In this document: positions 11,444 through 31,425 of the stretch, in pieces
Layout: every line of letters begins with the position of its first letter
Numbering within the stretch: the stretch's first letter is position 1
DNA from: an uncultured Flavobacterium sp.
Lineage (GTDB): Bacteria; Bacteroidota; Bacteroidia; Flavobacteriales; Flavobacteriaceae
Assembly: GCA_947631175.1 (NCBI GenBank)
Contig: CANRKI010000010.1
Coordinates: 1 to 39,382 of the forward strand
Direction: 5' to 3'
Length of the DNA stretch: 39,382 bases
Translations under genes and position numbers: made by a program
The notes under the pieces: model-generated
Told to the model about the DNA's origin: nothing
Seen by the model: the letters and a program-made list of their open reading frames with translations, nothing else
Database searches by the model: none

Positions 11444-11710
11444 ATTTTATTTTTTGGGCGTTTCCCGCCTTTTAGTGGGCGGGTCGCGTTTTACGCACTC
11501 GCAATTTTTTCACGTTGTTACAAAATGTGCTCAAACAATGCTCCACCCGCTAACGCGCTTCGCCATAAGTTAAACATTTGGCAGCGCGCGTTAGCGGGTG
11601 GAGCGGCATCCTTTTTTGTATAACGCAAAGCGTTAAAAAAAAAGATAAAGCGTAAAACGCGACGGTTTGGTAAATTTTTAATTTACTAAACCGGAACGCC
11701 CAGAATAAAA
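11444..11710. repeat. Nested-palindrome interspersed element, copy A
   Basis: Ends TTTTATTTTTTGGGCGTT ... GGAACGCCCAGAATAAAAAAA form terminal inverted repeats; subterminal 13-bp perfect IR (11484-11496 / 11650-11662); central 19-bp perfect IR (11540-11558 / 11586-11604); minor hairpin TAACGC-aaa-GCGTTA (11621-11635). Closely similar to copy B. Confidence 0.9.
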
Positions 11711-11737
11711 AAAGCTAAAGAAAAATCTTTAGCCTTT
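11707..11737 (-). terminator. Terminator of the NlpE-like gene, abutting copy A
   Basis: AAAAAGCTAAAG-aaaaat-CTTTAGCCTTTT. Confidence 0.75.
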
Positions 11738-11741
11738 TAGT

Positions 11742-12194
11742 TTATAGTTTTGTGAATCGGTAATGCTCTTTTAAGCTGCTTGTGATTGGTGTGCCATCAG
11801 AATTTAGATGAATTAATCCGTTCTCAACAACTTTAAGTTTAATGTCTGTTTCTTTACCTTTTAGGTGAACCACTCTTCCGTTGTCGTGCCACATAAATTC
11901 GCCAGCATCTTCAATTTTAGAATCGCGTTCTAAATATTCGCTAGTAATTTTAAAGGTTTTATCGGTGTTTAAAGTGATGTTTGTCTTAATTCCAGGACAA
12001 TCGGCACATGGTAAAGTTGCTTGGTAAGTTCCGTCCCAATCTAACGAATTTTCTGACGTGTGCTCGTCTATAATTGGATCATTAACAATTACGGTGTCTG
12101 TTTGCGTCTCGATTACTGGCGTTTCGGTTGTTTTTGGTTTACAACTTACTAGTGCTAGTGAAAATAAAAATAGGGAAATATATACTTTTTTCAT
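11742..12194 (-). CDS. Copper resistance protein NlpE-like lipoprotein
   Basis: Lipobox LALVSC; GTYQATLPCADCPGIKTNITLNTDKTFKITSEYL is the NlpE N-terminal signature (CxxC). Confidence 0.88.
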   Translation of the reverse strand: MKKVYISLFLFSLALVSCKPKTTETPVIETQTDTVIVNDPIIDEHTSENSLDWDGTYQATLPCADCPGIKTNITLNTDKTFKITSEYLERDSKIEDAGEFMWHDNGRVVHLKGKETDIKLKVVENGLIHLNSDGTPITSSLKEHYRFTKL

Positions 12195-13611: not shown

Positions 13612-13670
13612 ATTTATAAAACACAAAACTCACTAATTTTTTTAATTAGTGAGTTTTGTGTTTTATAAAT
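13612..13670. terminator. Very long perfect hairpin (27-bp stem, 5-nt loop), terminator-like
   Basis: ATTTATAAAACACAAAACTCACTAATT-ttttt-AATTAGTGAGTTTTGTGTTTTATAAAT. Confidence 0.8.
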
Positions 13671-21208: not shown

Positions 21209-21478
21209 TTTATTTTTTGGGCGTTCCCCGCCTTTTTAGTGAGCGCCTCGTGTTTTACTCACTTGCAATTTTTTCACGTTGTTACAAAATGTGCTTAAAC
21301 AATGCTACAACCCGCTAACGCGCTTCGCCATAAGTTAAACATTTGGCAGCGCGCGTTAGCGGGTGTAGCGGCATCCTTTTTTGTATAACGCGGAGCGTTT
21401 ACAAAAAAGATAAAGCGAAAAACGCGACGGTTTGGTAAATTTTTAATTTACATAAACCGTAACGCCCAAAATAAAAAA
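21209..21478. repeat. Nested-palindrome interspersed element, copy B
   Basis: Closely similar to copy A, same orientation; core 21219-21467. Central IR GCTACAACCCGCTAACGCGC (21304-21323) / GCGCGTTAGCGGGTGTAGC (21351-21369); ends GGGCGTT ... AACGCCC. Confidence 0.9.
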
Positions 21479-21506
21479 AACTCGACCGTTACTTGTCGAG
21501 TTTTGT
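21478..21506 (-). terminator. Terminator hairpin of the S9 peptidase gene, abutting copy B
   Basis: AAACTCGACcgttacttGTCGAGTTTT. Confidence 0.7.
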
Positions 21507-21509
21507 GTT

Positions 21510-23402
21510 TTATAGTGTTTCTTTTAACCATTTAAAAAATTCACCCTGCCAAATCATAGCATTTTGTGGTTTAATCACCCAGTGATTTTCGTCTGGTAAA
21601 TACACAAATCGTGATTTAATTCCTTGTAATTGTGCTGCCTGAAAAGCTTCTTGCCCTTGACCAATTGGCACACGATAGTCTTTACCACCATGAAATACCA
21701 AAATTGGTGTGTTCCAGTTTGCAACTAAATTTTTAGGGTTAAATTGTGCGTATGTTTTTTGAGCTACTGCATTGTTTTTGTCCCAATATGCGCCACCTGC
21801 ATCCCAATTTGTAAAGAAAACTTCCTCGGTTGTTCCGTACATAGATTCAAGGTTAAAAACACCGCAATGCGAGATAAAGGTTTTAAAACGGTTGTTGTGA
21901 ATTCCGGCTAAGTAATAAACCGAATAGCCACCGTAACTAGCGCCAATTGCGCCTAAACGCGATTTGTCCACATATTTTTCTTTGGCAACATCGTCAATTG
22001 CAGAAAGATAATCGTTCATTACTTGTCCGCCCCAATCTTTAGATATTGCTTCGTTCCACTCTACTCCGTGACCTGGCATTCCGCGGCGGTTTGGCGCTAC
22101 AATAATGTATCCTTGTGAGGCCATAACTTGAAAATTCCAACGGAATGAGTAAAAGTAACTTAATGCAGATTGTGGTCCGCCTTGGCAATATAATAGAGTT
22201 GGATATTTTTTGTTAGGATCAAAATTTGGAGGATAAATTACGTGAACTAACATGTCTTTTCCATCTGTTGTTTTTACCCAACGTTCTTCGGAAGTTACTA
22301 AATCTAAAGTTTTATATGTCTCGTTATTAACTTTAGTAACTTGATTCCACTTTTTAGATTTTAAGTTGTACGAATATACTTCGCTCGCTTGGTTAAAATC
22401 GGTACGGGTTACAAAAACATCGTTCCCTACAGTATCAACAATTCCGGTTACGTCAAATTTACCTGTTGTAATTTGTTTTACGTTTACCGCAATACGTTTT
22501 GCCCCCGGAAAGTTAACCTCGAACAAATGCTGTGCTCCTTTTACTGGGGCAACAAAGTAAATTTTAGTTCCATCTGCCGACCATTTGTAGCTAGAAACTG
22601 TTCCGTCCCAACCCGCAGTAAGGTTCATATCGATACCTTTGTAGCGTACGATTAAGTCATTTTTATCGGCTTCGTATCCATCGCGCTTCATTTGTAGCCA
22701 AGTTAATTCGCCGTTTGGAGAAAATGTAGGATGTGTATCGTACCCTGGATTGGTTGAAGTAAGATTTGTGGTTTGTTTTGTCGCTAAATCGTATTGATAT
22801 AAATCGGTATTTGTGCTAGTAGCGTATTCTGTTCCGATTTTCTTTTTAGCTACATAAACTACAGATTTATGGTCCGGAGCCCAAACATAATCTTCGCTAC
22901 CACCAAAAGGTTTTTGCGGAGAGTCGAAAGGTTCGTTTAATAAAAGGTCTACAATATTTCCGTTATTTTGCTCCACAAAAACGTGGTTGTGTGTTCCGTC
23001 ATTATAAGTATCCCAATGTCTGTAATCTAGGGCATCGTATATTTGAACTGTCGATTCTTTAAGCTCTGGGTAATAATCAGAACCTAAAACTTTGTTTATT
23101 TTAACCTCTTTATGCGTAAGCAAATCACCATTTGGAGCTTTGTATGGATCTGCAATTAAGTCTTTATAATCTTCAATTTCAGTAGGTTTTCCACCTTTTA
23201 AAGCTACAATGTACGTTTTCGAATTTACTTTGTTAGCAGCAACATCGGGAGTTCCTACTTTATAAACTAAATTTTTTCCATCTTTTGTGATCCCAACAGG
23301 CGATACTCTTCCTAACTTCCATAAAAGGTCGGGATTCATTACGTTTTGAGCCGTCATGTTTAGCCCCATTAAGGTTAAGGTTAAAATAATTATTTTTTTC
23401 AT
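21510..23402 (-). CDS. S9 family peptidase (acylaminoacyl-/dipeptidyl-peptidase-like), secreted
   Basis: Signal peptide; WD-like N-terminal blades; catalytic GASYGGYSVYYLAGI, HGGKDYRVP, DENHW. Confidence 0.94.
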   Translation of the reverse strand: MKKIIILTLTLMGLNMTAQNVMNPDLLWKLGRVSPVGITKDGKNLVYKVGTPDVAANKVNSKTYIVALKGGKPTEIEDYKDLIADPYKAPNGDLLTHKEVKINKVLGSDYYPELKESTVQIYDALDYRHWDTYNDGTHNHVFVEQNNGNIVDLLLNEPFDSPQKPFGGSEDYVWAPDHKSVVYVAKKKIGTEYATSTNTDLYQYDLATKQTTNLTSTNPGYDTHPTFSPNGELTWLQMKRDGYEADKNDLIVRYKGIDMNLTAGWDGTVSSYKWSADGTKIYFVAPVKGAQHLFEVNFPGAKRIAVNVKQITTGKFDVTGIVDTVGNDVFVTRTDFNQASEVYSYNLKSKKWNQVTKVNNETYKTLDLVTSEERWVKTTDGKDMLVHVIYPPNFDPNKKYPTLLYCQGGPQSALSYFYSFRWNFQVMASQGYIIVAPNRRGMPGHGVEWNEAISKDWGGQVMNDYLSAIDDVAKEKYVDKSRLGAIGASYGGYSVYYLAGIHNNRFKTFISHCGVFNLESMYGTTEEVFFTNWDAGGAYWDKNNAVAQKTYAQFNPKNLVANWNTPILVFHGGKDYRVPIGQGQEAFQAAQLQGIKSRFVYLPDENHWVIKPQNAMIWQGEFFKWLKETL

Positions 23403-27840: not shown

Positions 27841-27931
27841 GGTATAAAATAAAACCGTGTTCCTGCTTTCGCCTTTATCTTGTTTTTCACGTTGTTACAA
27901 ACAAGGATATCGGCTCTATCAGGGCTAAAAG
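27841..27931. repeat. Probable truncated/diverged relative of the palindromic element (copy C)
   Basis: Shares 19-nt TTTTTCACGTTGTTACAAA with copy A; then AAGGATatcGGCTCTatc resembles the reverse complement of copy A's right arm (AAGGATGCCGCTCCACCC). Confidence 0.5.
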
Positions 27932-31290: not shown

Positions 31291-31358
31291 TTTGGGCGTT
31301 CCGGTTTTACATAAATTAAAAATTTATGAAACCGTCGCGTTTTTTGCTTTATCTTTTA
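31291..31358. repeat. Truncated, inverted copy of the palindromic element's right end (copy D)
   Basis: TTTGGGCGTTCCGGTTTTACATAAATTAAAAATTTATGAAACCGTCGCGTTTTTTGCTTTATCTTTT aligns to the reverse complement of the copy A/B 3' ends, then diverges. Confidence 0.8.
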
Positions 31359-31425
31359 TTTAAATAATTAAATAAATGGATATCCTTACAAGCATAACAC
31401 ACCTTAGAAAAATCCGATCAACATT

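Follow-up and report, generated by a model that had tools for sequence, protein, structure and literature searches.

Paired intergenic repeats of a Flavobacterium genome consist of full-length Flavo-1 units that may act as folded DNA

Terminators are targets of Group IIC introns, and the attC sites of integrons are recognised by structure, in a strand-specific manner, as a folded single strand. RAYT genes of the Bacteroidetes subclass 2.6 have atypical flanking secondary structures, which are copied elsewhere in the genomes (PMC6006769). A superfamily of CGTC-tagged REPs, palindromic and without a dedicated transposase, has been reported also from Bacteroidetes (PMC3733652). Flavo-1 RNA was described by Weinberg et al. 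in 2010 (PMC2864571); it has been handled as an abundant sRNA family (PMC2864571, PMC9029176), and a review ranks it among the most abundant 'sRNA' families. In F. psychrophilum, Flavo-1 matches lie sense or antisense to transcribed regions indistinctly and many lie outside them, while some 5' transcribed regions coincide with such matches (PMC9723704).

Within the window (the whole stretch of DNA analysed, 39,382 nucleotides [nt]), a non-coding element named copy A occupies positions 11456-11701. The first-pass annotation had described it as a set of concentric palindromes, and a direct check of the sequence found each of the named inverted repeats at or very near its reported place. The outer repeat is formed by GGGCGTT (11456-11462) and GGAACGCCC (11693-11701), and it is flanked by TTTTATTTTTT (11445-11455) and AATAAAAAAA (about 11704-11713). 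The subterminal repeat pairs TCGCGTTTTACGC (11484-11496) with GCGTAAAACGCGA (11650-11662), the central stem of 19 bp (11540-11558 with 11586-11604) encloses a 27-nt loop, and a satellite hairpin is present at 11621-11635. Copy A is also GC-richer than its surroundings, as first noted (46% versus 29% and 37% in the flanking kilobases), and it is explained by no ORF: none of at least 80 aa covers it. Folded as RNA it reached -127 kcal/mol (z = -13.2), and folded as DNA it gave z = -11.0; in both cases, 0 of 200 shuffles were as good.

The concentric arrangement is, however, only one of two possible pairings of these repeats, and the family shows two independent modules. Copy A is composed of two units of ~101-114 nt joined 5' end to 5' end. 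Unit A1 (11456-11556), which reads in the Flavo-1 direction on the minus strand as 5' GCGTTAGCGG...GGGAAACGCCC 3', scored 112.5 bits with our covariance model R1. Unit A2 (11588-11701, plus strand; R1 51.8 bits) has the same fold in the opposite orientation, with its 5' end facing that of A1. Each module is closed by its own end-to-end stem, P0 (GCGTT 11458-11462 with AACGC 11552-11556 in A1; GCGTT 11588-11592 with AACGC 11695-11699 in A2); the terminal, subterminal and central repeats thus each relate one module to the other. The 19-bp central stem (11540-11604) arises because both modules carry an identical end sequence in opposite orientation; it is not a separate feature, and solitary units lack it. 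The P1 hairpin lies at 11464-11483 in A1 (CCCGCC/GGCGGG) and at 11663-11693 in A2 (CGGTTTGGTAAATT/AATTTACTAAACCG), the latter having been listed earlier as a satellite hairpin. The GGGCG end of A2 is abutted by the T-run of an intrinsic terminator (11702-11738, minus strand) that belongs to the minus-strand gene at 11742-12194.

When the genome (2.86 Mb, 233 contigs) was searched with copy A, dozens of partial matches were obtained, mostly covering half of copy A. Their side-by-side comparison revealed a self-contained unit of about 100-130 nt (range about 80-167 nt) with three helices and, in the Flavo-1 direction, the consensus GCGTTAGGGATTG-nAGC...variable hairpin...GC-nnnAAGCCCGA-(P1 hairpin)-nnAACGCCC. 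It folds into a closed three-way junction made of the 5-bp end stem P0, the P1 hairpin and a long P2-P3 arm. The covariance model R1 detected 142 units and a pattern search about 18 more, which represent further subfamilies; the genome thus holds at least about 160. Most are solitary; two units with their 5' (GCGTT) ends facing make up copies A and B as well as some ten further pairs.

The fold is strongly supported by covariation. Among the initial 20 units, 95.9% of cells were paired in the three-way-junction model versus 34-54% when partners were slid, and among 96 distinct units the corresponding values were 97.9% and 32-52%. In the latter set, two-sided (double compensatory) changes occurred at 23 of 25 pairs, and the covariation score was 0.594 compared with 0.023-0.110 for slid partners. 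P0 pairs were formed in 99.4% of cases, with double changes at four of the five positions (GCGTT/AACGC, GCATT/AATGC, GCAAT/ATTGC, GCGTG/CACGC, GTGTT/AACAC, GCGTA/TACGC and others). The first-pass annotation had called for a host-genome copy count and a covariance model, allowing that the genome might hold only these copies or that they might not covary; neither was the case. Its statement that such repeats occur in other Flavobacteriaceae was also borne out: units of this dispersed, structured, non-coding repeat are found in many Flavobacteriaceae and in other Bacteroidota. An enlarged P1 loop, which contains unrelated sequence within a TTTGCAT/ATGCAA-type stem, was seen in Chryseobacterium, Epilithonimonas and Sphingobacterium (loci L327, L332, L333 and L335).

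The long arm of the unit is the core of Rfam Flavo-1 (RF01705), listed as 'Gene; sRNA' with function unknown. The earlier statement that the repeat has no established function was right, though its core had already been catalogued. Unit A2 overlaps a Flavo-1 match (11576-11668) of 31.7 bits, which is under the gathering score of 42, and copy A is divergent within the family; sibling units of the same genome scored 42-56 bits, units of other genera 50-66 bits, and the second unit of locus L005 51.9 bits. Sixteen loci of the source genome yielded 15 Flavo-1 matches that exceed the threshold, and a match of this kind was present on 12 of the 13 unit-bearing contigs sampled (from Mesonia, Flavobacterium, Lutibacter, Ancylomarina, Sphingobacterium, Epilithonimonas and others). 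At the family level, the units belong to Flavo-1. Matches per genome ranged across the genus from zero in some to at least 60 in many. Besides Flavo-1, Rfam families gave just weak chance matches to copy A. The family is thus already known; new are the complete unit with defined ends, the near-absence of G-U pairs, the predominance of two-sided over one-sided changes, the polarity behind gene ends and the absence at two orthologous sites.

The window contains further copies. Copy B (21219-21467) is a second paired arrangement like copy A, consisting of unit B1 (21219-21321, minus strand; R1 71.1 bits) and unit B2 (21353-21467, plus strand; R1 45.4 bits). The GGGCG end of B2 is abutted by the T-run of the terminator (21468-21503, minus strand) of an S9 peptidase gene (21510-23402, minus strand). 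A window-wide Rfam scan detected a Flavo-1 relative at 27855-27930 on the minus strand (49.9 bits, over the gathering score), located in a convergent gap directly behind the terminator of a minus-strand dehydrogenase gene. A decayed or partial unit lies at about 31294-31400 (minus strand, 28.8 bits). Separately, an inverted repeat of 27 bp without mismatches, enclosing a loop of 5 nt, was seen at 13612-13670, just behind a small ORF.

Position relative to genes was analysed for the 92 units with flanks, out of at least about 160. No ORF of 90 aa or longer is overlapped by any of the 92. On the GGGCG side, the neighbouring gene is directed toward the unit in 64 cases and away from it in 23, with a median stop-to-unit distance of 41.5 nt; on the opposite side the gene points at the unit in 53 cases versus 29, with a median distance of 189 nt. 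The GGGCG-side distances are bimodal, clustering at 0-10 and 32-63 nt. Intrinsic terminators reading toward the GGGCG end were recognised at 45 of 92 units, mostly 6-13 nt from the hairpin, compared with 16 of 92 at the other unit end and 9 of 368 random positions; in roughly half of the units, the GGGCG end lacks a recognisable terminator. The same polarity was found in other species (29 versus 17, median 53). The polarity of the unit is fixed: its GGGCG end is anchored immediately downstream of the stop codon or terminator of a gene. Since each terminator in a convergent gap can hold its own unit, back-to-back pairs result. About a quarter of the GGGCG-side units start 0-10 nt past the stop codon, too close for an intervening terminator.

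Units adjoin apparent rRNA operons in the source genome and in G023, a relative; G028 and G012 probably show the same arrangement, with copies placed at contig ends as well (loci L255, L257, L261, L268, L270, L271 and L273; L171-L173 and L164-L166). The flanks shared there seem to be rRNA-operon duplicates. Near-identical copies in relatives that share 5'-side flanks alone had first suggested a LINE-like element with one sharp and one variable end; this idea was withdrawn because several such copies adjoin apparent rRNA operons, and these have kilobases in common in any case. In several units, a part of them beside rRNA operons, the GCGTT end is followed by 7-nt tandem repeats of the AATTACG type (L270 192-236, L273 1-84, and L263).

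In a presence/absence comparison made between species, the copy B units behind the S9 peptidase gene and the units behind a Suf-type protein gene were missing at the orthologous places in all same-genus genomes compared (0 of 21 and 0 of 24, respectively). The unit-free orthologous sites inspected do contain the terminators. Other units are old and vertically kept: the same flanks were found in Mesonia and Salegentibacter, and across several Lutibacter. Flanking direct repeats were no commoner than in shuffled pairs, and no target-site duplication, transposition event or partner enzyme was found; these negatives, like the old copies, weigh against a mobile element.

These data bear on whether the unit is primarily a functional DNA site, a BIME-like element or insulator located behind genes, where it would bind a protein, take up supercoils or prevent read-through, having spread and then been retained by selection. 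Such a role would fit the strong association with gene 3' ends and convergent gaps, the long persistence at some loci and the adjacency to rRNA operons in several species. Selection for a site is harder to reconcile with its absence from all related species at both tested positions, with a copy number that lies between 0 and more than 60 among genomes of a single genus, and with the lack of a conserved partner gene. We regard this explanation as unlikely.

Base-pair statistics were used to compare folding as DNA and as RNA. Paired cells numbered 2337; among them were 2268 Watson-Crick, 20 G-U (0.9%) and 24 A-C cells, with 20 of the A-C cells in one bulge-adjacent pair. Changed cells comprised 525 two-sided and 16 one-sided cases, counts that overstate the number of events, the copies being related and not independent. 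As the sole control for G-U content, 6S-Flavo RNA aligned from 25 same-genus genomes showed G-U in about 5% of cells, and 19 one-sided versus 51 two-sided changes with its terminal helix left out. Outside the bulge pair, G-U exceeded A-C by 20 to 4 (p about 0.0008 in a binomial test that ignores relatedness), and when three units were folded both ways, the Flavo-1 strand was better relative to shuffles. From this asymmetry and the strand folding z-scores, one strand seems to fold rather than both strands as a cruciform. The scarcity of G-U together with the two-sided changes points, by indirect steps, to DNA-level folding of one strand. These patterns suggest that the unit works as folded DNA just after gene ends, not as RNA. 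G-U depletion could also stem from hairpin-templated arm repair without a function of single-stranded DNA (ssDNA).

The first-pass annotation had offered a structured RNA as one option, and the Rfam class of Flavo-1 implies the same, an sRNA or a 3'-UTR element. The very strong covariation speaks for such an RNA, and some F. psychrophilum 5' transcribed regions do coincide with matches. Yet 6S-Flavo RNA from the same genomes has a far higher share of G-U pairs, many of the units are located past terminators and antisense to the GGGCG-side gene, and the published transcript mapping found matches without strand preference, many of them untranscribed (PMC9723704). The RNA option is disfavoured accordingly, and we consider it quite improbable.

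The first-pass annotation had alternatively proposed a MITE- or REP-like mobile unit. Its dispersed and structured nature stands; a REP element with a TnpA_REP/RAYT partner, and a target-site duplication, do not. No match to a Y1 transposase was detected in the unit-rich source genome, and among 60 relatives, 34 have Y1 genes. In the relatives, a unit was nearby at 2 of 40 loci whose Y1 match was RAYT-type or otherwise weak, and at none of 20 IS200-type loci, about chance level for Y1 genes; at these 20 loci, no sharing of ends between the unit and IS200/IS605 TnpA elements was seen. Other hairpins, often GATAGCGCGGATTTGCAATCCGTGCCC, are found at the RAYT flanks inspected, including those of RAYTs resembling Bacteroidetes subclass 2.6. 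Within the genus, a distinct and abundant hairpin repeat, GATAGCGCGGATTTGCAATCCGTGCCCAC, flanks RAYT genes (L064, L070, L072, L097 and others). Mobilisation by a subclass 2.6 RAYT or an IS200-type TnpA is therefore very unlikely, despite the Y1 genes of relatives, the copied flanking structures known for subclass 2.6 (PMC6006769) and the resemblance of the tail-to-tail pairs to REP dimers.

Autonomous copies were also sought. The two nearest wide pairs of units hold ordinary or short ORFs and no transposase; in one of them, a Suf-type protein gene adjoins the second unit. For a gene inside the arm, pattern matches outside the model proved to be further units and one chance match. No parental transposon with the unit's ends was noticed among the retrieved loci. 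Least probable of all is that an old repeat without present function or mobility keeps its pairing by hairpin-templated (quasi-palindrome) mutation in replication, for although two-sided changes almost without intermediates and the lack of a partner enzyme agree with such arm-to-arm correction, it leaves unexplained the fixed orientation and distance to gene ends and the conserved unpaired letters of the core.

With a probability of about one half, we favour the reading that copy A arose by two separate insertions of a dispersed, non-autonomous DNA element that corresponds to full-length Flavo-1 and of which a single strand folds and acts at the DNA level. Starting from the computed family, its fold, nearly Watson-Crick-only covariation, polarity and position, absence at orthologous sites and the missing RAYT link, we infer folding of ssDNA, transposition-like spread and an enzyme acting in trans. 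One specific strand, when single-stranded, would fold into the closed three-way junction (P0, P1, P2-P3) and would be recognised by this enzyme. The GGGCG end would then be attached immediately downstream of a stop codon or intrinsic terminator whose gene reads toward the unit, perhaps when hairpins are single-stranded at the replication fork. Convergent genes could each acquire one unit in this way, yielding a back-to-back pair. A wider proposal, that Flavo-1 is a class of ssDNA-folding mobile DNA of Bacteroidota rather than RNA, inserted with polarity behind terminators and stop codons by a new recombination enzyme, is tentative and rather doubtful.

Since its description in 2010, Flavo-1 has remained an orphan among 'structured RNA' families (PMC2864571). 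Demonstrating defined ends, almost purely Watson-Crick covariation and a constant position behind gene ends would shift it from RNA catalogues to DNA elements, and missing G-U pairs would be a general warning sign for other covariation-based 'RNA' families. The complete unit makes the nature of Flavo-1 a testable question.

Comparison with known systems places the unit as follows. The end motifs of the unit are in reverse order (GCGTT...AACGC) relative to the RYYYAAC...GTTRRRY order of integron attC sites, and no cassette arrangement as in integrons was seen. Group IIC introns show insertion guided by a DNA stem-loop (PMC10190682), and about half of the units have a Group IIC-like placement behind terminator stem-loops in fixed orientation. 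Unlike these introns, the unit contains no reverse transcriptase, and the window-wide Rfam scan gave no match to group II intron families. CGTC-tagged REPs are single hairpins of 20-40 bp with an unpaired CGTC tag at one end (PMC3733652); the unit, a three-way junction of about 100 nt, is set apart from them by these descriptions. With REPs and REPINs that have a RAYT, it shares dispersion, extragenic location, folded DNA, inverted dimers and high copy number. It is several times longer, its three helices differ from the REP hallmark of a single 20-40 bp hairpin with a GTAG or CGTC tag, no RAYT was detected in the source genome, and the RAYTs of relatives carry other repeats. Flavo-1 (RF01705) has the same long-arm core (...GAUUGnAGCG.../...AGCGnAAGCCC) with a variable hairpin, but its 76-nt Rfam model has 3-nt basal pairing without P0 or P1 and does not match the CTCGC...GAGCTC-type arm of unit A1. 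The full unit adds to this model the P1 hairpin and the P0 stem, which ties both ends together.
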